From Methylobacterium goesingense (GTDB taxonomy: Bacteria > Pseudomonadota > Alphaproteobacteria > Rhizobiales > Beijerinckiaceae), in contig NZ_BPQL01000101.1 of the NCBI RefSeq assembly GCF_022179225.1, forward strand, positions 1-64,000: a DNA stretch of 64,000 nucleotides, written 5' to 3'. The translations under genes were made by a program, and so were the position numbers. The notes under the pieces were generated by a model that was not told where the DNA came from, made no database searches, and saw only the letters and a list, made by a program, of their open reading frames with translations. This document shows, in pieces, positions 26,460-38,665 of the stretch (position 1 is its first letter; the number at the start of each line of letters is the position of its first letter).

Positions 26460-27740
26460 TCAGGACGATGGAGTGACGACGTCCGGGTTCGCCCCTGGCG
26501 CGAACTCGGGAAAGATTGCCCGCACGGTGGTGCCATCGTCGAGCACGCTCTCGATGAGCAGCCGGCCCCGGTGCCGGTTGACGATGTGCTTGACGATGGC
26601 GAGCCCGAGGCCGGTCCCGCCCTGGTCACGGCTCGAGGCGACGTCGACCCGGTAGAAGCGCTCGGTCAGGCGCGGGATGTGCTCGGCCGCGATTCCCGGC
26701 CCATGATCGCGTACGACGATCTCGACGTTGGTGCGCCCGCTGGCCTCATCGGTGTGACGTCGGAGCGCGACCTCGACGCGGCCGCCGCTGCCACCGTACC
26801 TCACGGCATTCTCGACCAGGTTCTCGACCACACGCAGCAACTCGTCGCGCTCGCCGAGAATCGGGAAGGCGCCTTCCGCCGCGAGGCTCAGCACTACGCC
26901 GCGGTCGCGGGCCAGTGGCCCCTGCGTATCCACCATCTGGCGGGCGATCCGGGTCAGGTCGACGGGCTGCGTCGGCGCGACGTGCTCGCGCAATTCGATC
27001 CGCGACAGCGACAGGAGGTCGTCCACGAGGCGCGCCATCCGCTGCGCCTGGGCCTTCATGATGCCGAGGAAGCGCTCCCGTGCCGGCGGGTCGTTGCGCG
27101 CTGGGCCCTGCAACGTCTCGATGAAGCCGAGGAGCGAGGCCAGCGGCGTGCGCAACTCGTGGCTGGCATTGGCGACGAAATCGACCCGCATCGCCTCCAG
27201 GCGCCGCGCCGAGGTGAGGTCGCGCAGGAACAGCACGACGTTGGGCTGCCCGCCCACTACCCCGTCCGGCATCGGCAGCGCCCCGATCTGCACCTCGAAG
27301 GCGCGTTCGGTGGGGACACGCGTGGCGTAGAGCGTTTTAAGCGAGGCGCCGGTGCGCAGGACCTCCTCGATCCCGTCGAGGACGTCGGGCGCGCGCAGGG
27401 CAAAGGACAGCGGGTGGCGCAGCTTCAGTGCCGGCAACAGGGCGCGGGCGGCGGGATTGACCTCGATCACCACCGCGCGGCGGTCGACCAGGATCACGGG
27501 GTCGGGGATATTGGCGAGAAGGGCTTCCGCAACAGAGTGGCGGTTGGCCCCGGGGCTCTCCGGCGCCCGCACGATCCGTGAGCGTCCGAGGCTGCCGATG
27601 GTCCCGCCGAGACAGAGAACGACGAGGGACGCCGCGACCGCCGGAACGTCGAGGGTGCCGCGTCCGGCGGCGAACACCCCGAGTCCGATCGTCACGACGG
27701 TTGCGGCGGTCCAAGACGATCGACGCGCCCCCCGTGCCAT
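26460..27740 (-). CDS. phoR: Phosphate-regulon sensor histidine kinase PhoR
   Basis: A 426-residue kinase with a short N-terminal membrane region (residues 10-50), a PAS domain (about 70-170) and HisKA with the phospho-acceptor His in VANASHELRTPLASLLGFIETLQG. The HATPase_c domain shows ENLVENAVRYG, DHGPGI and GGTGLGLAIVKHIV. The SHELRTPLASLLGFIETLQGPARND stretch is characteristic of PhoR/PhoR-like kinases. Neither phoB nor the pst-phoU genes follow; instead the gene ends an operon that begins with inositol-phosphate synthase. Gap to the upstream flippase-like gene is 14 nt. Confidence 0.85.
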   Translation of the reverse strand: MARGARRSSWTAATVVTIGLGVFAAGRGTLDVPAVAASLVVLCLGGTIGSLGRSRIVRAPESPGANRHSVAEALLANIPDPVILVDRRAVVIEVNPAARALLPALKLRHPLSFALRAPDVLDGIEEVLRTGASLKTLYATRVPTERAFEVQIGALPMPDGVVGGQPNVVLFLRDLTSARRLEAMRVDFVANASHELRTPLASLLGFIETLQGPARNDPPARERFLGIMKAQAQRMARLVDDLLSLSRIELREHVAPTQPVDLTRIARQMVDTQGPLARDRGVVLSLAAEGAFPILGERDELLRVVENLVENAVRYGGSGGRVEVALRRHTDEASGRTNVEIVVRDHGPGIAAEHIPRLTERFYRVDVASSRDQGGTGLGLAIVKHIVNRHRGRLLIESVLDDGTTVRAIFPEFAPGANPDVVTPSS

Positions 27741-27754
27741 GCGGCCCCCCGGCG

Positions 27755-28864
27755 TTAAGGCGCGCCGCGGGTCCCGGCGCCCCGGCTACGCTTGACGATC
27801 TCGTACACGGTCAACATGGCCAGGGCGATGACAAAGGGTACGAGGTAGTAGCAGACCCGGAACAGCAGCAGCGATCCGAGCACCTGATCGCGGGGCAGAC
27901 TCGACAGGGCGAGCAGGATCGTCGCCTCGAACACCCCGATGCCGCCCGGTGCGTTCGACGCGATGCCCAGCATGGCCGCCAGGACGTAGATCGCCACGAA
28001 GGTCGTGAAACCGATCGAGGTGCCCGCCGGCAAGAGCACGTAGAGCGTGGCGGCGGCTGCGCAGACGTCGCCGATGCCCACCACCATCTGGCTCAAGGAA
28101 ACCGAAGCGCCCGGCAGTTCAAGGCGCCAGCTCTTCACGCGCACGTGGCGACGCTTCAGCGACACCCAGAGCAGATAGGCCACGACGGCGAGGAGCGCGC
28201 CGAAGCCCACGCCCTGGTTCAGCGCGATGCTGGTGAAGGTGAGGGCGGCGAGCTGCCCCGCCTCGACGATCAGGCTGAGGCCGAGGACGACGCCCATGCC
28301 GAGCCAGAAGGTGAAGCCGGCAATCACCGTGAGGGCAGCGATCTTGGCCGCGCCGAGACCCTTGCTGGAGTAGATCCAGTAGCGGATCGTCCCCGCCGTC
28401 AGGAGCGGGAAACCCAGGGTGAAGCTGACGGCGTAGCTGGTGAACGAGGCGAGCGCCGTCGTTCGGTACGGCACCTTCAGCTTCAGCTGACGCAGCGCCA
28501 GGGCGTCGTAGCAGGTGAGGAAGAGGTAGCTCACACCGACGAACAGAAAGGCGAAGCCAAGCTGCTTGGCGGAGGCCCCCGTGAAGGCCGCGTGCATCTC
28601 CGCCCAGGTGACCGTCTCGACGAGCTTCCACAGGACGAACAGCGAGCCCGCCACGATGGCGAGACTGGCGATGGTGCCGAGCCACGCATAGCGGCCGCGC
28701 ATGCCGGATTTCGCGGGCGCCGCCTCGGCCTCCGACGCGTTGATCGGGGACGCCTCGGGCGCGAGCGCCTCGGCCGTCTCGATCTGCTTCTGCTGTCCCG
28801 CAAAGTTCATCGTGTCGGCGTCCGCCTCCGCTGGGCTCCCCGCGCACGGCCGCGACGGCGGCAT
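27755..28864 (-). CDS. UPF0104 / lysylphosphatidylglycerol synthase-type transmembrane protein (flippase-like)
   Basis: Integral membrane protein of 369 residues (351 from a second ATG at 28810) with about eight helices, matching the membrane half of MprF and the AglD/YbhN group. Marks are SYAVSFTLGFPLLTAGTIRYWIYSSKG and GIASNAPGGIGVFEATILLAL. These proteins lack the aminoacyl-transfer domain and are thought to flip lipid-linked substrates. At the end of a glycoside cluster it may move a lipid-bound glycan or the product (inference). It starts 3 nt after the uracil-DNA-glycosylase-like gene. Confidence 0.82.
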   Translation of the reverse strand: MPPSRPCAGSPAEADADTMNFAGQQKQIETAEALAPEASPINASEAEAAPAKSGMRGRYAWLGTIASLAIVAGSLFVLWKLVETVTWAEMHAAFTGASAKQLGFAFLFVGVSYLFLTCYDALALRQLKLKVPYRTTALASFTSYAVSFTLGFPLLTAGTIRYWIYSSKGLGAAKIAALTVIAGFTFWLGMGVVLGLSLIVEAGQLAALTFTSIALNQGVGFGALLAVVAYLLWVSLKRRHVRVKSWRLELPGASVSLSQMVVGIGDVCAAAATLYVLLPAGTSIGFTTFVAIYVLAAMLGIASNAPGGIGVFEATILLALSSLPRDQVLGSLLLFRVCYYLVPFVIALAMLTVYEIVKRSRGAGTRGAP

Positions 28865-28867
28865 GGG

Positions 28868-29578
28868 TCAACCCGAGCTTGTGCCGGACCACGGCCCGTC
28901 GCCCGCATTTAGGGGCATCGGGCGGCAATTGCCAGCGAGGGAGGCTCGATGCCCACCGGCGATGCAGGTCTGGGCCTGCGTGAGGCCCGCCCGGATGCGC
29001 TCCGCGACGCTGTGCGCGGTGCAGACATAGGTCGGGCTCGGATGCGGGACGGCGATCACCGGGAGGTCCGGCCGCAGCGCTGCGAGTTCCTCCCGCGCGA
29101 GGCCCGCGACCCGGCCGGAGAGCACGATTACGCGGAGCCGTGGCAGGCATGCGAGGAGCGGCGCGAGGCAGGGCAGGGCCTGTCTTACCTCCAAACGGCG
29201 CGGGGCCCGGTTCAGGGCGCCGGGCGCGTGGATCACCCACGGGATCGTGTTCCAGATCAGGGTGTCGCGGCGGGCGATACCGGCCTCGGCGAGGAAGCGG
29301 AACAGGTTGGCGGCGGTGCCGGTCGGGTTGTCGCGCGAGACTAAGCCGGTGCCGCGGATGCTCGGCCCGGGCGTCTCCAACAGGAGCAGCAGCCGAGCCT
29401 CGACGCCGCCGTCGAGGGGGTCGGGATCGGGCACCTCGGCCCCGTTCGCCGCGGCGATCTTCTGTGCGAGGGCGCGGATCGGGGCTATGCGGGGGCTGTC
29501 GAGCAGGGCCTTTCGCGCGGCCAGGGCGTTCGGGTCGCGCAAGCTCTTCGGTTCGGCGGGCGGCGCCTCAGCCGGCAT
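28868..29578 (-). CDS. Uracil-DNA glycosylase superfamily protein
   Basis: A 236-residue UDG-fold protein. Motif 1 appears as LLLLETPGPSI, followed by GTGLVSRDNPTGTAANLFRFLAEAGI and IWNTIPWVI; motif 2 is AVPHPSPTYVC. The N-terminal cysteines that bind the 4Fe-4S cluster in family 4/5 enzymes are not visible, so it belongs to another branch. ATG at 29578 overlaps the PIG-L gene by 11 nt. The presence of a DNA-repair fold inside a biosynthetic operon is odd; repair, self-protection or a non-DNA substrate are all open. Confidence 0.75.
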   Translation of the reverse strand: MPAEAPPAEPKSLRDPNALAARKALLDSPRIAPIRALAQKIAAANGAEVPDPDPLDGGVEARLLLLLETPGPSIRGTGLVSRDNPTGTAANLFRFLAEAGIARRDTLIWNTIPWVIHAPGALNRAPRRLEVRQALPCLAPLLACLPRLRVIVLSGRVAGLAREELAALRPDLPVIAVPHPSPTYVCTAHSVAERIRAGLTQAQTCIAGGHRASLAGNCRPMPLNAGDGPWSGTSSG

Positions 29579-30332
29579 CGGCGACGAGACGCGCCAGGCT
29601 TGCGGGAAGAGCGCCTTGCCGACGGAAGCGCTCGCGACCGTTCTCCTGCTCCAGGCGCCGGGCGAGGCCGTCGCGGCCGCCGAACTGAAAGCCAAGTTGC
29701 GTCGCGTAAGCGGCGCAGGCCTCGGCCTTGGCGCCCCGGCTCTCGGGTCCGCAGAGGATCTCCGCCTCCGGCAGGCCGGCGAAGCGCGCCCGCAGGGGTT
29801 CCTTCGGGGTCTGGTCGCGCACCGTGTAGGGAAAGTCGCGCCACCACAGGATCGGCGCGGCGGGCGCGGCCGCATCGAGGGCCCGGACCACCTGGACATG
29901 GTCGACATGGCCTCCGATGGCCTGGGGGGCCAGGATCAGATCGGGTGCCGTCTCGGCGAGAACCGCCCGGACAGCGTCGGTCAGGGCGGGCACGATCCCG
30001 TCATCGGCCCGAACGTCGCGAAACAGCTCGGGCGCCGAGGCATAACCACGGTGGGGCGCCTCGCGGAAGGACCAGTGGCGCGGGCGCGCCAGTCCGAGGG
30101 CCCGGATCGCCGCTCTATCTTCGGCACGGCGCAGGTCCATGTAGTCGACCTCCGGCCCGAGCCCCTTGTCGGTCTGGCAGGCGAGGGCAAAGCCAGTCGG
30201 GCTCGCCACCGAGGCGGTGAAAACCGTCACGGTCTCGACGTCCCAACCCGCCCGGCCGAGGGCGTGGAGCAGGCCGCCGCAGGAGAAGGCGGCGTCGTCG
30301 AGATGCGGCGACAGGGCGAGGGCGGTGGGCAT
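29568..30332 (-). CDS. PIG-L family deacetylase (MshB/LmbE-like)
   Basis: Zinc-dependent N-deacetylase fold, 254 residues. The metal motif is SPHLDDAAFSCGG at residues 8-20, and the second His pair is GGHVDHVQVV near residue 140. Known members deacetylate GlcNAc-inositol (MshB), GlcNAc-PI or bacillithiol precursors. It lies directly after a GT4 gene (4-nt gap) in an operon that starts with inositol-phosphate synthase, so an N-acetylamino-sugar linked to inositol is the natural guess for its substrate. Confidence 0.87.
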   Translation of the reverse strand: MPTALALSPHLDDAAFSCGGLLHALGRAGWDVETVTVFTASVASPTGFALACQTDKGLGPEVDYMDLRRAEDRAAIRALGLARPRHWSFREAPHRGYASAPELFRDVRADDGIVPALTDAVRAVLAETAPDLILAPQAIGGHVDHVQVVRALDAAAPAAPILWWRDFPYTVRDQTPKEPLRARFAGLPEAEILCGPESRGAKAEACAAYATQLGFQFGGRDGLARRLEQENGRERFRRQGALPASLARLVADAG

Positions 30333-30336
30333 CGGT

Positions 30337-31560
30337 TCAGAGCAGGTGCGGTTCGGCGCGAAAGCGGCAGGACGGATCGTGCGGCAGGGTCGCGGCGAAA
30401 TCGGTCGCCGGGCGCTCGTTCACCACGTGCGCGTACACGTCCATGATCTGGCGTCCCACCGCGCCCCAGGAATAGACCCGGCGGCATTCGGCCAGACCGT
30501 CCTCGGCGAGGCGACGCCGGAGGGGCGCATCGGCGATCACCCGGGCGAGGGCGTCGGCCAGGGCCGGCACGTCGCCCGGCTGGACCAGGAGGCCGTTCTC
30601 GCCGTCGCGAAGACAGTCGGAGACCCCGACCGCGTGGGTCGAGACCACCGCGAGCTTGGCCGCCATCGCCTCCAGGATCGTGTTGGAGAACCCCTCCGCG
30701 TAGGTCGGCGATACGAAGACGTCCGCCGCCCGGTAGAGGTCCGGCACGGTGTCGTAGTCGGCGTAGCCGGTGAAGCGGATCTCGGCCTCGGCCATGTTGA
30801 GTTCCGCCGCGCGGGCCTTCGACGAATCCACGTCTGGCCCGATCCCCGAGATGATCGCTTCGAACGGAATCGCGCGAGCCCGCAGCAGCGCGAGGGCGTC
30901 GATGAAGTCGAGCACGCCTTTCCGGCGATCGACGCGGCCATGATAAAACAGCCGCACCGGGCCGGGATGGCCCCCGGGACCGGGGGTGAAGCGCGTGGTG
31001 TCGACGGCGCCGGGGACGATGGTGAAGCGGGCGGGGTCCGAGCCGAGCCGGTCGCAGACCTCCTCGACGAAGGAGGCGCCGCCGATCAGCAGGGCGTTGG
31101 CGTGGGCCAGCACCTCGCACATGGCGACCCGGTGCGTCTCGCAGCAGGAGCCGACCCAGTGGCCGTCGCCGCCCTGGATCGAGACGACGTTCGGCACGCC
31201 GATGGCCCGCGAGGCCAGGAGGGTCGCCCAGCCGGTGGGATAGCCGTACTGCGCGTGCAGGATATCGAACGGCTTCTTCGCGTGCTCGGCCTGGATCGTC
31301 GCCACCATCGTGTCGATGTCGCGCTCGAAATCGCCGCTCTCCTGCTCGCCGACCTGTTCCAGGCCGATGACGGTGACGCCAGGCACGGCGGGCGGCGGGC
31401 CACCGCCATAGACCCGGGTGCCGAAAGCGTCGCCCCGGTACTGCGAGATCATCGTGACGTCGTGGCCGGCCTGGACCAGTTCACGCAGCAGGTTCTGCGC
31501 GTAGACGCTCATGCCGGAGATTGCCGGGAAGTAGCGGCGCGAGACGAAGCAGATCCTCAC
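30337..31560 (-). CDS. GT4 family glycosyltransferase (MshA-like layout)
   Basis: GT-B retaining glycosyltransferase of 407 residues. The N-terminal domain begins MRICFVSRRYFPAISGMSVYAQNLL, with the glycine-rich acceptor loop. The C-terminal donor domain has VRLFYHGRVDRRKGVLDFIDAL, the EX7E motif in EGFSNTILEAMA, and a UDP-sugar pocket. GTG at 31560 overlaps the isomerase stop (GTGA), so the two are coupled. In mycothiol synthesis MshA of this family joins GlcNAc to inositol 3-phosphate; the neighbouring PIG-L and inositol synthase make that a reasonable but unproven comparison. Confidence 0.87.
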   Translation of the reverse strand: MRICFVSRRYFPAISGMSVYAQNLLRELVQAGHDVTMISQYRGDAFGTRVYGGGPPPAVPGVTVIGLEQVGEQESGDFERDIDTMVATIQAEHAKKPFDILHAQYGYPTGWATLLASRAIGVPNVVSIQGGDGHWVGSCCETHRVAMCEVLAHANALLIGGASFVEEVCDRLGSDPARFTIVPGAVDTTRFTPGPGGHPGPVRLFYHGRVDRRKGVLDFIDALALLRARAIPFEAIISGIGPDVDSSKARAAELNMAEAEIRFTGYADYDTVPDLYRAADVFVSPTYAEGFSNTILEAMAAKLAVVSTHAVGVSDCLRDGENGLLVQPGDVPALADALARVIADAPLRRRLAEDGLAECRRVYSWGAVGRQIMDVYAHVVNERPATDFAATLPHDPSCRFRAEPHLL

Positions 31561-32402
31561 GCGGAGGCTCCCGGGTTCGGGTTGCGGCAGTCGCGCAGGT
31601 ATCTCAGCGAGGCCGGGACCATCAGGTCGGCGCGGTGGCTCTCGCGCGAGAGTTCGACGCAGATGAGTTTCTCGAAGCCGATCGCGTCGAGGGCATCGAG
31701 CACTGCGGGCACGTCCATGTCGCCTTCGCCGAAGGGCAGGTGGATGTGGACGCCTCGCGCCATGTCCTCCAGGGCCACGGTGCCGATGCGGTCCGCGAAC
31801 TCGCCGACCGCAACGGCTGGATCGCGCTCGCCGGTGACGAGGCAATGGCCGGTGTCGAGGGCGAGCCGCAGGCCGGGAATATCGAGGGCGGCGTAGTCGT
31901 CCAGCGTCTCGATCAGCATGCCGGGCTCGGGCTCCAGGCAGGCGACGACGTTCCGCTCGGCGGCGTAGGCGACGACCTCCGTCAGGCCCTCGCGGAGCCA
32001 GGCTCGGGCTTCGTCGTGATCGATGCCGGGCTTCGGCACGCCGGCCCAGAACGAGACCGCTTCGGAATGCAGGATCGCGCCGATGTCGATGGCGCGTTTG
32101 AGAAACCCGATGCGGCGGGCCCGCCCCGTCGCGTCGCCGCTCACCAGGGTCGGCTCGTGCTTGGCCTTCGGGTCGAGAAGGAAGCGCGCGCCGGTCTCGA
32201 TCACCGAGCCGAGGCCGAGGCGCTGCAGGCGGCTCGACACGCGCTGCGCCTCAGGCAGCCAAGCCTCGGCGAAGGGGTCGAGGTGGTGGATGTCGAGGGT
32301 CAGCGCCACACCCTGGTAGCCGGCCTCCGCGATGAGGTCGATCGCGTCGTCCAGGCGGTGATGGGCGGTGCCGTTCGTGTTGTAGGCGAAGCGCAGGCTC
32401 AT
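31557..32402 (-). CDS. Sugar phosphate isomerase/epimerase (xylose-isomerase-like TIM barrel)
   Basis: AP_endonuc_2/IolE-IolI-type TIM barrel, 281 residues. The metal-binding residues lie in VACLEPEPG (Glu), LALDTGHC (Asp/His), GVHIHLPFGEGDMD (His) and ICVELSRESH (Glu). Relatives dehydrate, isomerise or epimerise inositol and keto-sugars. Paired with a Gfo/Idh dehydrogenase and inositol synthase in one operon, it may modify an inositol or inosose ring (inference). Starts at ATG overlapping the YcaO stop (ATGA). Confidence 0.82.
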   Translation of the reverse strand: MSLRFAYNTNGTAHHRLDDAIDLIAEAGYQGVALTLDIHHLDPFAEAWLPEAQRVSSRLQRLGLGSVIETGARFLLDPKAKHEPTLVSGDATGRARRIGFLKRAIDIGAILHSEAVSFWAGVPKPGIDHDEARAWLREGLTEVVAYAAERNVVACLEPEPGMLIETLDDYAALDIPGLRLALDTGHCLVTGERDPAVAVGEFADRIGTVALEDMARGVHIHLPFGEGDMDVPAVLDALDAIGFEKLICVELSRESHRADLMVPASLRYLRDCRNPNPGASA

Positions 32403-33988
32403 GCGGCGCGTCCCTGCTGCTCCAGGCGGAACGGGGCGTGGTGCGATTCCGGCTCTCGGTAGAGCGGGTAGTGCGAGCCGACGATCTGGTCGGCGAGCGC
32501 GGTGTCGAACAGGGGCTGGCCGCCGAAGCGTTCGATTGCCTCGGGTGTCAGGCGCACGGGCTTCAGGGTGTCGGTGGCCTCACCGAAGCGGATCAACGGA
32601 TGGTCGCGTTCGATGAGCTTCTGTGTGTTGCGCTCGCCGATGCGGTGATAGCTCATGGTCTCGACCTCGAGCCCCGGCACGATTGCCTTGACCACGCCGA
32701 CGCGCCCGCCCGGCGGCGAGCAATCGACGTAGAGCACGTCGAACCCGGCGTCCTCGAGCCGCTCGCGGGCGATGCGGCCTCGCGCGTGCCCGTCCGGCGC
32801 TTCCGTCGTCGGCAAGTCCGAAAAGCGCTTGGTCGAGCGCTCGGAATAGACCGTGTCGCGAAGCGTGTCGGCGATGCCCTCCGGCGGCTTGACGATCCAT
32901 TCGAGCATCGCCTTCAGAGCGCGGCTTTCCTCCAGATCGAGGCTCGGCAGGGCCTTGTCGATGAACGCTTTGACGTAGCCGGGCGGCGTAACCTGCTCCG
33001 CAAAGGCGAGGGGCCCGTGGCCGAAGGCCTTGCGCACGCGGGCGGCCTGGAACTCGAGGAGCGCCTTGCGGAGCGCCCGCTCCCGGTCCGGATCGCAGGC
33101 CTCGCCGCAGGCCGAGAGAGCGATCGGCACTGGCGTGTCGGCAAGATTGCGGTCGTAGCCGACGACGTAGAGGTTGGTCAGGCCGAATTGGTCCGTGGCG
33201 AATTTTGGCACGGCCCTGATCCCGAGGGCGTCCAGCTGGTCGAGCATACCGCGCGTCTCGGGGCCGAGGCCCTCCGAGAGGTCGAGCATCACGCCCTGGT
33301 CGAGGGCGCGGAACAGCAGGCCGTTGCCGTCGCGCTGCAGCAGTTCGAGGAGGCCGTGGCCCAGGGCGAACGCCACGTCCGGCCCGGCGCCGAGGCCGTT
33401 GGTGATGAGGTTGGTGAAGGGCTTGTAGCCTTCCGACAACTCGAAATAGTCGGTGGCGGCGATGTCCAGCGGCATCAGCACCGTCTCACCGGTGCGGGCT
33501 CGGACCGTGGGCGTCCATTCGAGGGTGGTGGCGCGCCCCACCGGGCTGCCGGCCGGCAGGCACAGGGTGAGGGGGTCGGCCACCGCGCCGGCGCCGTAGA
33601 CCCGCACGAGGTCGTCGTAGCTGGCGCGCTCCTTCTTGCGCGGCATCACGGCCAGCGACGGCATCAGGTTCTCGGCGATCTCCGCCACCGCGCCGATGAT
33701 CGCCTCGTCGTCGGTGGCGCCGTAGCCGATCCCGCTCGGCATGGCGCCGACGAAGAACGGATCGTCGAGGAACAGCGACACGAACCAGACCGGGATGCCG
33801 GTCCGGTCGAGGGGCGCCAGGGGGAAGCCGACGATGCGCCCCTCCGGCAGGATGTCGAGATAGGCGCGCACCGGCTCGGGCAGAGCGGCCGGCAAGCCCT
33901 CGATCCGGCGGGGGGCGCCGTAGCTGTAGGCGCGCGGCGCCTTGATCCGGCTGTGGCGGGCGCGGTCGTCCTGGTCCTGCTCGTTCAC
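32399..33988 (-). CDS. YcaO-domain protein (ATP-dependent cyclodehydratase/thioamidation family)
   Basis: A 529-residue protein whose core is a YcaO domain. YcaO enzymes activate amide backbones with ATP to make azolines, thioamides or amidines. The ATP/Mg-binding helices are seen as EAIIGAVAEIAEN (about 95), ALGHGLLELLQRDG (about 210) and ALRKALLEFQAARVR (about 305). The C terminus (FRLEQQGRAA) lacks the PxPxP end of azoline-forming cyclodehydratases. No E1/ocin-ThiF partner, TfuA or obvious precursor peptide is adjacent, so a small-molecule substrate is plausible. The start is GTG at 33988, 13 nt after the dehydrogenase gene. Confidence 0.85.
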   Translation of the reverse strand: MNEQDQDDRARHSRIKAPRAYSYGAPRRIEGLPAALPEPVRAYLDILPEGRIVGFPLAPLDRTGIPVWFVSLFLDDPFFVGAMPSGIGYGATDDEAIIGAVAEIAENLMPSLAVMPRKKERASYDDLVRVYGAGAVADPLTLCLPAGSPVGRATTLEWTPTVRARTGETVLMPLDIAATDYFELSEGYKPFTNLITNGLGAGPDVAFALGHGLLELLQRDGNGLLFRALDQGVMLDLSEGLGPETRGMLDQLDALGIRAVPKFATDQFGLTNLYVVGYDRNLADTPVPIALSACGEACDPDRERALRKALLEFQAARVRKAFGHGPLAFAEQVTPPGYVKAFIDKALPSLDLEESRALKAMLEWIVKPPEGIADTLRDTVYSERSTKRFSDLPTTEAPDGHARGRIARERLEDAGFDVLYVDCSPPGGRVGVVKAIVPGLEVETMSYHRIGERNTQKLIERDHPLIRFGEATDTLKPVRLTPEAIERFGGQPLFDTALADQIVGSHYPLYREPESHHAPFRLEQQGRAA

Positions 33989-34001
33989 GGTGTTCCGTTC
34001 C

Positions 34002-35018
34002 TCAGGGCAACGCGGCGTAGGCGCGGGCCAGCAAGCGCATGGTGTGGAGGTCGCGGATGGCGCTGTAGGCCTCGCGCTCCTCCGGCCGGCGCAGGGCCGA
34101 GCCGAAGGCCTTCACCTGTTCGAGGAAGGGTGAGGCTTCCCCGTCGAAGGGTAGAGTGTCCGATGCGCCGGTTGACCCATCGGTGAACGACAGGGTGCCA
34201 CCCGCCACCTGTCCCATCGTGTCGATGGCGGTGAGGAGCCCCTTCGTGCCGGTCACTTCGAGGCGGCGGCGGGGCAGGGCGTCCGGGCAATTGTAGGCGA
34301 CATGCAGGTTGGCGAGAACGCCGGATGGCGTGCGTCCGATCAGGAGGGCGCCGTCGTCAACGGAGTAGTCCTGGGCGCGGGCCTGGGTCAGGGCGGCGAG
34401 GTCATGGATCGATTCGTCGAGGAGGAAGTCGACGAGGTCGAGGCCGTGGGGCGCGAGATCCATCAGGGCGCCACCGCCGGCCTTGACCGGGTCGATGCGC
34501 CAGTTGTCCTGGCCGGCGAACGAGGTCCAGGCCTTCGGCAGCCAGCAGGCGTAGACGATGCGGATCGCCGTCACGGTGCCGAGCCGGCCCTCCCGGATGG
34601 CGGCCCGCATGGCCCGGTGAGCCGGGTGGTGGCGCTGGTCGAAGGCGGTGCCGTAGAAGGTGTCGCCACCGCGCAGAGCCGCCACCATCGCCTCGGCGTC
34701 GGCGAGGGAGGCCGCCATGGGCTTCTCGCACAGGATGGCCTTGCCGGAGCCGGCCAAGGCCTCGATCGCCTCCCGGTGGAGGTGGTTCGGCGTGGCGACG
34801 TAGACCGCTTCCACCTCCGGATCGTTCACGAGGTCCTGAAGCCGTGCATGGGCGCGGGCACCCTCGGCTTCGGCCGCGGCGCGCGAGGCTTCGCCCGGAT
34901 CGGCGACGGCAACCAGCCGGTGCCCGGCCGCGCGGATGCCCGGCGCCATGTAGTCGCGCGCGACCCAGCCGTAGCCGACGATGCCCCAGGCGACAGGGCT
35001 GTTGTCCGGGGTTGCCAT
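34002..35018 (-). CDS. Gfo/Idh/MocA family NAD(P)-dependent oxidoreductase
   Basis: A 338-residue sugar/inositol dehydrogenase-type enzyme. The N-terminal Rossmann motif is WGIVGYGWVARDYM, the EKP motif is ILCEKPMAASL, and the catalytic C-terminal region is GGALMDLAPHGLDLVDFLL. Family members oxidise inositols, amino-sugars and nucleotide sugars. Its operon partners (inositol synthase, TIM-barrel isomerase) make an inositol or glycoside ring carbon the likely site. The ATG at 35018 overlaps the methyltransferase stop; GTG one codon earlier is equally possible. Confidence 0.87.
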   Translation of the reverse strand: MATPDNSPVAWGIVGYGWVARDYMAPGIRAAGHRLVAVADPGEASRAAAEAEGARAHARLQDLVNDPEVEAVYVATPNHLHREAIEALAGSGKAILCEKPMAASLADAEAMVAALRGGDTFYGTAFDQRHHPAHRAMRAAIREGRLGTVTAIRIVYACWLPKAWTSFAGQDNWRIDPVKAGGGALMDLAPHGLDLVDFLLDESIHDLAALTQARAQDYSVDDGALLIGRTPSGVLANLHVAYNCPDALPRRRLEVTGTKGLLTAIDTMGQVAGGTLSFTDGSTGASDTLPFDGEASPFLEQVKAFGSALRRPEEREAYSAIRDLHTMRLLARAYAALP

Positions 35019-36202
35019 CACCAGCGCTCCGGCAGGTCCACATAGGTCCGATCGCGCACTCGGTCGGCCTCGGGGGCTTCGAGTTCGCCCTGCCAGTCGA
35101 AGCTGTCCGGCCCGGTGAAGGTGACCGGATAGGTGGCTTGGGCCGCGTATTCGGCCTCGTAGCGCTCGGACGGCCAGCGGATGGTGTAGCGATCCGCCCC
35201 TTCGGCGACGTAGAGCGGATTGAGGCGGAGCGTCCGGCCCGGGCGCGGCACGGTGATGCCGTCGATCACCGGGCGGGGGGCCGGGCGCATGCCGGGACCC
35301 GCCACCACCGAGAAGGCCTCGCAGTCCGCCAGATCCTGCGGCTTGCGGGGGGCAGGTGCCCGCCGTTCCACCAGCGAGCGGGTCAGGTCCGCGTCGTCGT
35401 AGACAAGACCGTCGGGGAAGAGTTCATCGATCTCGGCCGCCGAGACGGCACGCCCCGCCGAGAAGCCCGGCCGATCGCTGTTGTGGATATGGCTGACGGC
35501 AAGCCAGCCGTCGTCGCCGGCATTCTGGCGCAGGCATTCCAGCACCTCGGCCTTGCGGTCGAGGAAGTAGAAGGCGTCGTTGCAGACGACGAGGTCGATT
35601 GGCGCGCCGGGAATCGGCCAGTGGGGCGAATTAGCATCGAAGCAGACGAGCTGCGCCGGCTTGCCGACCACCCAGTGCCGGGCGACCCAGAGCTTGGCGA
35701 AGACCACGTCGGCGCCCGCGACCTTGATGCCGCGCGTCTGGAACTCGCGCAGGTAATGGCCGATGCCGCAGGCGAACTCGAACACGCAGACCGGGTCGTT
35801 CCAATGTGCTTCGAGCAGGGTGAGCCCGGCGAGGAAGGTCGGGTCGGTCCAGCGATGCAGGAAGTAGTCGCCGACCCGTCCCCAGCCGAGGAGGCGAACC
35901 GCGTCACGCAACGAGCGCCGGTCCCGCTCGCGCACGAGTTCGTGCAGGTCCAGCGGATCTGCCGGCGGGCCCGTCCACCAGTCGTCCTGGTCGGCCAGGA
36001 GGCCTTCGAGAGCGAGGTCGGCCTCGCCGGCATCGAGCAGCTTCAAGGTCTGTTCGACGAGGTCGGCGCGGTTGGTCCGTAGATAGGGAATGCCGTCGAT
36101 CACCGGCCAGCGCGCGCCGCTCGGCGCCTCGCGTAGCGAGTGCGGGGTGTCGGCCTTGAGGGGCTCGCCGGTCTCCGGCGAGCGAAGATCGAAGGGGATC
36201 AT
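35018..36202 (-). CDS. Class I SAM-dependent methyltransferase
   Basis: A 394-residue protein. The N-terminal 60 residues (MIPFDLRSPETGEPL...WPVIDGIPYLRTN) resemble a Trm112-like segment without its cysteines. The methyltransferase domain begins at about 140: VCVFEFACGIGHYLREFQTRGIKVAGAD (SAM motif I) and APIDLVVCNDAFYFLDRKAEVL. The C-terminal ~100 residues have no domain I recognise. Located between the HD-fold and dehydrogenase genes, it probably tailors the cluster product (inference). The ATG at 36202 is chosen over a longer form. Confidence 0.8.
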   Translation of the reverse strand: MIPFDLRSPETGEPLKADTPHSLREAPSGARWPVIDGIPYLRTNRADLVEQTLKLLDAGEADLALEGLLADQDDWWTGPPADPLDLHELVRERDRRSLRDAVRLLGWGRVGDYFLHRWTDPTFLAGLTLLEAHWNDPVCVFEFACGIGHYLREFQTRGIKVAGADVVFAKLWVARHWVVGKPAQLVCFDANSPHWPIPGAPIDLVVCNDAFYFLDRKAEVLECLRQNAGDDGWLAVSHIHNSDRPGFSAGRAVSAAEIDELFPDGLVYDDADLTRSLVERRAPAPRKPQDLADCEAFSVVAGPGMRPAPRPVIDGITVPRPGRTLRLNPLYVAEGADRYTIRWPSERYEAEYAAQATYPVTFTGPDSFDWQGELEAPEADRVRDRTYVDLPERW

Positions 36203-36233
36203 GACGGGGCGCCCGTGCGGTCGCAAGGAGGCA

Positions 36234-37157
36234 TCACGGGATCTGCATGTCCTTCAGCACACGGTCGTGGAAGCCCTTCACCGGCCCGGCATGGACGAGT
36301 TCCATCTCGTCGAGAACGGTACCCATGGTCAGGCTCGCGGCCCGCAGGTGCTGGGCGATCTGCAGCACCCGGTCGATGCAATCTGCGGCGTGGAAGGCGC
36401 GGCCCTCCGCCGTGGCGTCGTCCGGCAGAACGCCGCGTGCCCGCTGGACCGTCTCGCGCAGGGCCGGGTCGAGTTCGTCGAGGGCCCACTGCGTCGTGCG
36501 GGCCATGATCGGCAGAAGATGGTCGCCGAGCAGCATCTCGCCGGTGAAGCCGGCATCCGGCATCGCGGCGTTGTGGAAGTGGTGCGCCATCGCTGCGAGG
36601 AAGACCAGGGTCGGGTCGGCCCGGTAGAACGGGCTCAGCACGACGCCGTAGACCGCCACCATCAGGCAGTGCTCGGCGTGGTTCTCCGGCGGCTCCAGCA
36701 GGATTCGAGGCTTGCCGGGGCAGGTCACGCCGGCCCGCGGCTGGTGCGCCAGGGCAGCGACGAAGCCCGGCAGGGAACCCTGCGCGAAGCTCGCCGGCGC
36801 GCGCAGGGCCGCCCGCAGGCGGTCCCGCAGGCCGGGCTCGACGCTGTCGGTCACGGCGTCGAACCCGGAGACCAAGATGTCGGCCGTCGCCCGTTCGTCG
36901 AGCCCGGCGGCGGCAAGGAACGCCGCATCGAGATCGCAGAGGCGGGCGGCGGCCAGCGCCTTGGCGGTGATGTCGAGGGCGACGGCCTCCGGCGCGGCGC
37001 CCCCCGTGAGGGCGCCCCAGCCTTGCGCGAACAGGCGCTCGGCGATGGAGCCGGTCCGCCCTGCGGAATGGACGCGCTTGAGGTCGTTGACCTCGACGAG
37101 GAGGGCGCGAAGCGCCAGCGGGGCCGCGGGACCGGCGCCCTCCGTCTGCGTCGACAT
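36234..37157 (-). CDS. HD-superfamily-like protein of unknown activity
   Basis: A 307-residue protein. Residues 145-265 look like an HD-fold metal site: His in ENHAEHC, AMAHHFHNA where the canonical HD pair would be, His in GDHLLPI and FHAADCIDRVLQI near the end. The HD pair is thus altered (HH or HN). HD enzymes include phosphohydrolases and the di-iron oxygenases MIOX and PhnZ; both would make sense beside inositol-phosphate synthase, as an inositol-phosphate phosphatase or an oxygenase. The ATG at 37157 overlaps the synthase stop. Function not assigned. Confidence 0.7.
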   Translation of the reverse strand: MSTQTEGAGPAAPLALRALLVEVNDLKRVHSAGRTGSIAERLFAQGWGALTGGAAPEAVALDITAKALAAARLCDLDAAFLAAAGLDERATADILVSGFDAVTDSVEPGLRDRLRAALRAPASFAQGSLPGFVAALAHQPRAGVTCPGKPRILLEPPENHAEHCLMVAVYGVVLSPFYRADPTLVFLAAMAHHFHNAAMPDAGFTGEMLLGDHLLPIMARTTQWALDELDPALRETVQRARGVLPDDATAEGRAFHAADCIDRVLQIAQHLRAASLTMGTVLDEMELVHAGPVKGFHDRVLKDMQIP

Positions 37158-38347
37158 CAGTGCGCGCCGAGCCACTCGAGCAGCATGGTTTGCTGCTTGC
37201 CGAAATCGTGCTCGGGGCCGTGGCCATTCTTCACCATCGGGGCCTTGAAGAAGCTCGAGAGCTGCTCCTGGACACCGCCGTCGCCGCGCTGCTTGGCGAG
37301 TTCGAGGACGCGGGCGATCTCGATGACGAGGGGCGCGGCCAGGATCGAGTCCTTGCAGAGGAAGTTGACCTTGATCTGCATGCGCTGGCCCATGAACCCG
37401 CTGACGTCGATGTTGTCCCAGGCTTCCTTGTCGTCACCGCGCGGGCGGTAATAGTGGATGTGCACGAGGTGGTCCTCGACCGGGTAGCCGAGGATCGAGT
37501 CGAGCACCGTGCCCTTGGTGTTCAGCTTCGACTGGAGCGAGTCCTTGTCGTTGAGCGCCAGACCGTCGCGGTTTCCAAGGATGTTGGTCGAGAACCAACC
37601 ATCCACGTGCAGGGCGCGGGCCTTGAGCGCCGGGGCCAGGACCGTCTTCATCATGGTCTGGCCGGTCTTGCCGTCCTTGCCGGCCACGGGGACGTTCATC
37701 TCCTTGGCGAGTTCGAGCAGGGCCGGCACGTCGGCGGCGACGCTGGGGGTGAAGTTGGCATAGGGCACGCCGCTCTTGATCGCCGCGTAGGCGTAAAGCA
37801 TCGCCGGGCTGATCGACTCGTCGCTGCTGTCGAGACCCTTCTCGAAGGCGGCCGTCGAGTTCAAGGTCGGGTCGGCAAGGTTCGGCCAACGCTCGGTGGA
37901 AGCGAGGTTGATCACCACGACCTCGTCGAGATTGCTCTCGGCCTTGAAGCGGCGAAGATCGTTGGCAATCACAGAGACCGCCTCGCGGTGGTCCTTGGCG
38001 ACGATGCGGTTGGCACCCTCGATGTTCTTGCAGAACTTGGCGCTGCCAACGGCCGGCCAGGGCTTGATGCCCTTCAGGACCTGGGCGCCATTTTCGATGT
38101 CTTGCGCGGTGAGAACGCCGTGGCCGGTGGCGGCCGAAGCGAGGTCATCGTCGTTGAGATCCCATCCGCCGAACACGAGGTCCTTGTAATCGGCCATCCC
38201 GGCGACGGGAACGCCCGCCAGGGGCAGGCCATCGAGGCGGTTCGATCCGGATTTGATCATCTCGATGCCTGCGATGGCGGTGGTGGCGACAGCGCCACCC
38301 ATGCCAACGAACGCAACGCCGACGCGGCGACCGGTCTGCATGCTCAT
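37157..38347 (-). CDS. Inositol-3-phosphate synthase
   Basis: NAD-dependent enzyme that turns glucose 6-phosphate into myo-inositol 3-phosphate, 396 residues, the size of the prokaryotic (Ino1-like) form. Visible are the NAD site VGVAFVGMGGAVATTAIAGIEM, VVVINLASTERWPN, the core VAGKDGKTGQTMMKTVLAPALKARAL, and SILGYPVEDHLVHIHYYRPRGDDKEAWDNID. The ATG at 38347 has GGAAG upstream. It is the first gene of the 11-gene unit. Inositol is not a general proteobacterial metabolite, so this gene marks a special product. Confidence 0.93.
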   Translation of the reverse strand: MSMQTGRRVGVAFVGMGGAVATTAIAGIEMIKSGSNRLDGLPLAGVPVAGMADYKDLVFGGWDLNDDDLASAATGHGVLTAQDIENGAQVLKGIKPWPAVGSAKFCKNIEGANRIVAKDHREAVSVIANDLRRFKAESNLDEVVVINLASTERWPNLADPTLNSTAAFEKGLDSSDESISPAMLYAYAAIKSGVPYANFTPSVAADVPALLELAKEMNVPVAGKDGKTGQTMMKTVLAPALKARALHVDGWFSTNILGNRDGLALNDKDSLQSKLNTKGTVLDSILGYPVEDHLVHIHYYRPRGDDKEAWDNIDVSGFMGQRMQIKVNFLCKDSILAAPLVIEIARVLELAKQRGDGGVQEQLSSFFKAPMVKNGHGPEHDFGKQQTMLLEWLGAH

Positions 38348-38665
38348 TGGAAAACGGCTTCCTTCTTCGGATTGAACGGAAGCCCTTCCCAACTCGGGGG
38401 CTGTTCCGCTCAGCCCTCACTAACTGGGCTACCGGGGCTGCGTTCCAACCCTGGCCAGGACGCCTTTTTGACGCGGTGTGGCTGAACGGCGTCCGAACGA
38501 AGGATTAAAATTCCGTAAATACAGTGCCTTAACCGGACGTTAAGCGTGCCATCGTTGAATCACGGAGCTGTCCCATTCTGGTCACAGCAACCGGCGAGAC
38601 GTCCCCTCGCTGAACGACAACGAAGCCGCGCCCGATGAAGGCAGCGGTACGAACAAGGACCAGTG
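38348..38665. other. Divergent intergenic region
   Basis: A 318-bp gap separates the inositol synthase operon from the transglycosylase gene and must hold both promoters. It is relatively AT-rich around 38505-38525. An inverted repeat GGACGCC/GGCGTCC (38458-38464 and 38488-38494, 23 nt apart) is the only symmetry I see. No convincing -35/-10 pair or peptide-coding frame with a good ribosome site is found. Confidence 0.4.

Follow-up and report, generated by a model that had tools for sequence, protein, structure and literature searches.

What is made by eleven closely packed genes on the minus strand of a Methylobacterium goesingense contig (NZ_BPQL01000101.1), at positions 26460-38347 of the 64,000-nucleotide stretch analysed here (the window)? 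An earlier note on this DNA had read them as a single transcription unit for an amino-sugar-inositol, perhaps bearing a YcaO-made (thio)amide or amidine, and every family that it had named was present. The unit that turned out to be conserved comprises eight of these genes, which encode myo-inositol-phosphate synthase (MIPS), an HD-fold protein (HD), a methyltransferase (MT), a Gfo/Idh dehydrogenase (Gfo), YcaO, a TIM-barrel protein (TIM), a GT4 glycosyltransferase and a PIG-L deacetylase. That these eight form one conserved biosynthetic pathway, together with a metallo-beta-lactamase (MBL)-fold protein, is well supported. The best single reading of its product, to which we give a probability of about 40%, is a polar ultraviolet (UV)-absorbing aminocyclohexenone glycoside whose amine is installed by YcaO and not by an ATP-grasp ligase. 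We favour a UV screen because of a joint gene replacement, a match of molecular formulae and a set of associations with a UV-related gene family.

The conservation of the cassette was followed in 117 YcaO-containing loci annotated with profile hidden Markov models: the window, four plasmid loci, 80 loci from a scan of named genomes (the best 80 of 224 relatives, ranked by likeness to a Hymenobacter query) and 32 from other genomes. Two of these (L088 and L205) were the same locus, so that 116 were distinct. The order MIPS-HD-MT-Gfo-YcaO-TIM-GT4-PIG-L was found in 46 of the 47 Methylobacterium/Methylorubrum loci, the 47th being cut at both ends. Among the 69 other distinct loci, 25 had the order MIPS-HD-MT-Gfo-MBL-YcaO-TIM-GT4-PIG-L, one of them with a lyase-family gene (see below) in front; L050 carried two YcaO genes, eight loci were without MT, L109 was without MBL, and in L044 MT was absent and YcaO was shifted to the end. 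Four loci were of a type with a sugar-phosphate cyclase, 13 held a lone YcaO, and 16 were cut by contig ends, had no MIPS or TIM in the stretch, or were unusual. In total, 36 distinct loci outside Methylobacterium/Methylorubrum had the whole MIPS-type set or were short of MT or MBL only. According to record titles, several of which refer to metagenome-assembled genomes (MAGs), the MIPS type is spread over five phyla (Pseudomonadota, Bacteroidota, Actinomycetota, Myxococcota and Chloroflexota) and the cyclase type over three (Verrucomicrobiota, Planctomycetota and Armatimonadota). The same gene order was present on plasmids of Roseomonas haemaphysalidis (YcaO 44.8%) and, without MT, of Hymenobacter volaticus (YcaO 42.0%); two plasmid matches to the window, at 82.6 and 88.1%, were Methylobacterium.

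Since the first eight genes recur with unchanged order in other phyla, the cassette is more than a chance arrangement. The single-pathway idea of the earlier note was borne out in this comparison, as the eight genes are kept together in distant bacteria and scatter among relatives was only partial, in the form of splits such as that in Actinomycetospora, where TIM-GT4-PIG-L sits a few kilobases further on. In L055 and L176, TIM was present and MIPS was absent within the stretch examined. Within the window's genus, YcaO was found in 58 of 59 genomes (the window's own genome counted), and in 40 genomes from the order's other families there were only five weak matches (22-28% identity). The proteins of Methylobacterium sp. 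Leaf104 were 90-95% identical to those of the window. A sample of 246 planctomycete genomes had the YcaO family only in the centre genome.

The ninth member, an MBL-fold protein whose N-terminus resembles rubredoxin, generally precedes YcaO outside Methylobacterium, and in Hymenobacter setariae and two Verrucomicrobia the two form a single fused protein. The window is without it; its gene is on another contig of the same genome (E 2.8e-107), and all 59 genomes searched in the genus encode it away from the cassette, one of them with a partial match. The rubredoxin-like zinc ribbon was a weak match (16.1 bits against a cut-off of 26.5), with four invariant cysteines, and the matches of the protein to solved structures were weak and only to PqsE-type thioesterases (E 2e-4 to 8e-4).

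A further variation concerned the entry into the pathway. In L041, L045, L049 and L053, and only in those four among the annotated loci, MIPS and TIM were both absent and the first gene encoded a sugar-phosphate cyclase (NF004852, 482.9-552 bits against a 333-bit cut-off). Its structural matches included 4p53 and 5tpr; dehydroquinate synthases scored higher, and the alignments were compared only to the latter. A search for TIM at E<=1e-20 found none in three of the four genomes, and in the fourth found a 41% TIM within a separate MIPS-TIM-UbiA-TIM locus. In a midpoint-rooted tree of five concatenated proteins, the cyclase type took two positions, one beside Chloroflexaceae (support 1.0) and one among Myxococcaceae and Skermanella (1.0, with the closest pairing at 0.82). 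Two joint replacements suggest that the pair of MIPS and TIM provides what the cyclase otherwise provides. Sugar-phosphate cyclases eliminate phosphate to give deoxy-keto-cyclitols, whereas inositol reaches the deoxy-keto state by oxidation and dehydration, i.e. through IolG-like and IolE-like enzymes. MIPS plus TIM thus appears to stand in for a cyclase making deoxy-keto-cyclitols, like those of the gadusol and mycosporine routes, and Gfo was present in the cassettes of both types.

A further line of evidence is the association of YcaO with the spore-photoproduct-lyase family (TIGR03886), which presumably acts in UV repair. Among 385 Alphaproteobacteria, YcaO was confined to three genomes, two from the window's genus and the third from a different family. 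TIGR03886 was over its cut-off in all three, as compared with 0 of the 382 others, a fourth genome matching below the cut-off; Fisher's test gave p 1e-7, for what are no more than two independent lineages. In the genus, TIGR03886 was matched at E<=1e-80 in 57 of 59 genomes (56 over the cut-off) versus 0 of 40 outside it. In 298 genomes of an actinobacterial order, it was over the cut-off in 17 of 19 genomes in which YcaO has cassette genes next to it (the atypical L175 counted) and in 55 of the other 279, or, with lone YcaO included, in 25 of 31 versus 47 of 267. The lyase-family gene was also found close to the cassette. In two Actinomycetospora it shares the strand of PIG-L and is separated from it by no more than about 30 nucleotides; in Rubrobacter it lies upstream of MIPS (about 2.4 kb) and in Roseomonas beyond PIG-L (about 2.6 kb). 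In Microvirga aerophila it immediately precedes a lone YcaO. Six genomes of the genus (G006, G011, G023, G030, G045 and G047) have it within 6 kb of MBL, and in the other 16 with both genes on one contig the distance is at least 73 kb.

On the basis of these findings we propose a product that would work like a mycosporine and would be built differently, by the eight genes and MBL. A cyclitol-derived core is well supported by the enzyme families. MIPS (37157-38347; PF07994 219.9 bits, PF01658 118.5 bits) would make inositol phosphate, to be dephosphorylated by HD (36234-37157; Pfam HD_3 15.7 bits, below the 22.5 cut-off) or by a housekeeping phosphatase. Gfo (34002-35021; Gfo/Idh/MocA family, PF22725 96.6 bits, PF01408 90.4 bits) would oxidise inositol to an inosose, from which the xylose-isomerase-like TIM barrel, the proposed inosose dehydratase (31557-32402; PF01261 119.7 bits), would remove water to yield a trihydroxycyclohexanedione (C6H8O5). 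A cyclase product such as 2-deoxy-inosose would, once oxidised, also be C6H8O5, and so the MIPS and cyclase routes could converge. Where present, the S-adenosylmethionine methyltransferase (35018-36202; PF13489 38.3 bits) may cap the enol. YcaO (32399-33988; PF02624 150.2 bits against a gathering score of 25.7) and MBL, with ATP, would activate the enol oxygen of the vinylogous acid and place an amine there to give a vinylogous amide, and the second YcaO of some clusters could make a vinylogous amidine. Finally, GT4 (30337-31560; PF13692 120.2 bits) would add N-acetylglucosamine, which PIG-L (29568-30332; PF02585 65.1 bits) would deacetylate. The amino-sugar-inositol of the earlier note covers only part of the picture, since a sugar-phosphate cyclase can replace MIPS and TIM together. 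A vinylogous amide or amidine on a cyclohexenone fits this replacement better than the (thio)amide or amidine that had been suggested for YcaO.

The individual enzymes agree with these roles to different degrees. Seven YcaO residues, which we take to be those of the ATP site (E60, E168, Q171, R172, D173, K260 and E264), were invariant in a 15-row alignment. The nearest solved chain was MJ1094 (E 2.8e-25), presumably a thioamidation enzyme; in NCBIfam, the SagD model of the TOMM class, TIGR03604, gave 76.2 against a cut-off of 219.25, and the thioamidation model 52.5, also below its cut-off. No E1, TfuA or RRE partner or precursor peptide was noticed among the conserved genes, where short peptides and RRE domains were not searched for. 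An azoline cyclodehydratase of ribosomally synthesised and post-translationally modified peptides (RiPPs) was rejected, with YcaO below the cut-off and no conserved partner noticed. In Gfo, K100, D188 and H192 were invariant in 23 of 23 rows and presumably resemble the inositol-dehydrogenase triad; the best solved matches were anhydrofructose reductases, with inositol 2-dehydrogenase ranking lower. Neither Gfo nor TIM passed an equivalog test (IolG 103.5 against 355; IolE 20.8 against 290). The AlphaFold model of HD had a pLDDT (predicted local distance difference test) score of 92.2, and its residues 124-283 gave a best VIA Z of 11.5, where the tool asks for about 13 with helical proteins; the top rows were all HD-domain proteins, and Foldseek returned nothing for the model at E<=0.001. 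H192-H193 was invariant in 23 of 23 rows and aligned to the HD of 2cqz (weakly, E 0.0083), which means that the His-Asp dyad of HD phosphohydrolases is absent and reads His-His throughout. The likeness of the model to HD phosphohydrolases is thus moderate, and the weak sequence match agrees with it. The model also disfavours, not decisively, a MIOX/PhnZ-like oxygenase, as PhnZ was a weak Foldseek match and the top VIA rows were HD phosphohydrolases.

Several observations weigh against a UV-absorbing aminocyclohexenone. To our knowledge, there is no precedent for a YcaO acting on a vinylogous acid. Methylobamine, a published UVA absorber of Methylobacterium, is reportedly a dioxopyridine joined to tyramine and is thus unlike the predicted product. 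The model of TIM (pLDDT 90.3) matched mostly sugar epimerases and isomerases among 50 VIA rows (Z 30.6-26.4), with the dehydratase AsbF and IolI ranking lower (IolI at rank 24 in one listing), which counts against a dehydratase. A phosphatase role of HD is doubtful because HD is also kept with the cyclase, whose product should be phosphate-free. No MT was detected in the cassettes of Hymenobacter, Chloroflexaceae, Verrucomicrobia and Armatimonadetes, and several cyclase-type genomes are MAGs, in which the absence of TIM may reflect incompleteness. As for the UV association, the co-occurrence statistics are uncorrected for phylogeny. Only nine of the 24 genomes or records behind the YcaO loci have the lyase-family gene (eight over the cut-off), and 47 genomes of the actinobacterial order carry the gene but no YcaO; such partial co-occurrence is more in keeping with a common exposure to UV than with a step of the pathway.

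The main rival is a glucosaminyl-cyclitol pseudo-disaccharide, which we consider possible and on balance unlikely. Here MIPS, GT4 and PIG-L would follow the logic of the first three mycothiol steps, Gfo and TIM would isomerise the cyclitol in the manner of IolG and IolI, and YcaO would convert an amide on it to an amidine or thioamide. The product would be a protectant, an antibiotic or a cofactor lacking UV absorption. The epimerase/isomerase likeness of the TIM model, with IolI at rank 24, suits this view, as does YcaO, whose amidine and thioamide chemistry is known and whose nearest solved relative is MJ1094, though the SagD model outscores the thioamidation model. However, the pseudo-disaccharide leaves unexplained why one cyclase should replace MIPS and TIM while Gfo stays, it makes the association with the lyase family accidental, and neither a sulfur-transfer partner nor an amide-forming ligase was noticed in the conserved set.

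A redox or thiol-type cofactor, with a sulfur or metal-binding group that guards against oxidants arising from light and drying, appears improbable. In its favour are the weakly matched zinc ribbon of MBL, with four invariant cysteines, and the presence of Skermanella aerolata and lichen MAGs among the locus names; but no cysteine ligase, acetyltransferase or sulfurtransferase was seen in the conserved set, and MshC is below its cut-off in the genome. Just as improbable is a cell-envelope glycoconjugate, exported in Methylobacterium by a flippase-like protein under the control of a kinase. Genes for both follow the cassette in Methylobacterium loci; at the non-Methylobacterium loci among the 85 compared, neither was found with the cassette (loci added later were not scanned for the two), and no lipid-linking enzyme was seen in the conserved set.

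The same comparison of 85 loci altered the boundary of the unit. Of the eleven genes proposed earlier, the flippase-like gene (27755-28864; LPG_synthase_TM, PF03706 42.2 bits) was confined to Methylobacterium/Methylorubrum loci, where the gene for a PAS histidine kinase (26460-27740; read by eye, without a library search) follows it. Both were therefore rejected as pathway members, as neither was found at the non-Methylobacterium loci of this set. The pathway's ninth protein, MBL, comes from a gene outside the window. The gene of the uracil-DNA-glycosylase (UDG)-superfamily protein (28868-29578; PF03167 34.5 bits, cut-off 24.3), whose family, like that of the kinase, the earlier note had not named, had also been counted in the unit, which does not hold either: beyond Methylobacterium/Methylorubrum it occurred in only three of the 85 loci, namely L047, L055 and the Beijerinckiaceae MAG L109, and was not detected in L070. 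The UDG-like gene is another neighbour of DNA-repair type; it overlaps PIG-L in the window, and its relatives flank the cassettes in L047 and L055.

In the window, four start-stop overlaps of 1-4 nucleotides and gaps of at most 31 nucleotides were confirmed as described in the earlier note, and there is a fifth overlap, of 11 nucleotides, between PIG-L and the UDG-like gene, if the latter begins at the ATG at 29578 (the protein was scanned from 29605, and this ATG was taken as its start). The junctions, in nucleotides, are -1 (MIPS/HD), +31 (HD/MT), -4 (MT/Gfo), +13 (Gfo/YcaO), -4 (YcaO/TIM), -4 (TIM/GT4), +4 (GT4/PIG-L), +3 (UDG/flippase) and +14 (flippase/kinase). From these overlaps and short gaps, a single transcript of all eleven genes is plausible. 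A sigma-70 promoter scan of the region gave 0 sites against 0.7 expected. An EcfG-type general-stress promoter 5ʹ of MIPS was rejected, as it was found in 0 of 44 Methylobacterium loci against 0.6 expected from shuffles. Upstream of MIPS (38347-38600), a block TTGGAACG...CAGTTA was seen in five of seven Methylobacterium loci compared and could be an ECF-type promoter.

Additional variation was noticed around YcaO. Two or three YcaO genes per cassette occur in L041 (13101-14567), L045 (13347-15029), L050, L051 and L052, where successive aminations could take place. Lone paralogous YcaO genes were found in L193-L204, L063 and L114, and an ABC sugar-importer permease, recognised by eye, accompanied 12 of 16 YcaO loci compared, including L063 and the Microvirga locus L114; lone-YcaO loci with the permease are perhaps an uptake or second-amination branch. 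In L175 (G897), MIPS-HD lies about 8 kb downstream of YcaO in reversed order, with no other cassette genes in the stretch. The Gfo and GT4 genes of Hymenobacter volaticus (L032, 10102-11150 and 14371-15700) are each split into two reading frames, in contrast to the single frames of Hymenobacter loci such as L035.

Our literature search, with most subscription papers outside its coverage, found neither a description of this cluster or its product, nor anything joining YcaO, or inositol-3-phosphate synthase, to mycosporine, nor a paper that brings together any two of YcaO, inositol-3-phosphate synthase and PIG-L. The pathway, present with YcaO almost throughout the genus and with counterparts in other phyla, thus has a product undescribed in the literature searched. 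UVA-absorbing compounds are reported in Methylobacterium (PMC12573535, PMC9664959), vertebrate gadusol is made by EEVS and a methyltransferase/oxidoreductase (PMC4426668), and the main text of a Methylobacterium genome survey does not contain the term "inositol" (PMC8561711). A broader proposal, which we hold slightly more tentatively than the reading of the product itself, is a phylum-crossing class of sunscreens, in which an aminocyclohexenone is made interchangeably from myo-inositol or from a cyclase product, YcaO does on a vinylogous acid what it does on amides, and the product is the source of at least some of the UVA absorption of Methylobacterium. If so, YcaO chemistry would extend to carbocycles, chromophores of the mycosporine type would have another biosynthetic origin, and the genetics of Methylobacterium UVA absorbers would become directly testable.

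With mycothiol biosynthesis the cassette shares the MIPS, GT4 and PIG-L enzyme types, and it differs in its further conserved enzymes. Mycothiol itself, already doubted in the earlier note for want of MshC, was rejected: GT4 and MIPS fall below the equivalog cut-offs (MshA model 83.2 against 462.5; INO1 model 48.1 against 638), and the best MshC score in the whole genome was 259.8 against a curated cut-off of 485.1. As the MshC search matched 13 of 14 control genomes and was over the cut-off in one, this match is presumably a cysteinyl-tRNA synthetase. The ebo cluster combines the EboD cyclase with the EboE TIM barrel and differs in having a UbiA prenyltransferase; YcaO, GT4 and PIG-L are not among the six proteins listed in the abstract of the ebo paper (PMC5133447), which puts the ebo cyclase close to EEVS/DDGS and proposes a cyclitol metabolite. 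An Isosphaeraceae locus (L125, 1241-5407 of G102:C280) has a MIPS-TIM-UbiA-TIM cluster, with UbiA recognised by eye, and is possibly an ebo-type cluster in which MIPS replaces EboD, a parallel exchange.

The pathways to gadusol (EEVS/MT-Ox) and to mycosporine-like amino acids (DDGS, O-MT, ATP-grasp) have in common with our system a cyclase-derived cyclitol, in four of the cassettes, an oxidoreductase and often a methyltransferase, an ATP-using enzyme and UV-linked neighbours. The cassette differs in that the window has MIPS and a TIM barrel as the entry in place of a sugar-phosphate cyclase, that YcaO stands where ATP-grasp or NRPS enzymes would be, and that GT4, PIG-L, HD and MBL are extra. 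YcaO proteins also act in non-RiPP clusters, such as that of 6-thioguanine (YcfA). The cassette resembles these in having a YcaO apparently without a precursor peptide, and differs in that no sulfur partner was seen, in its cyclitol and sugar enzymes, and in its distribution over many phyla.

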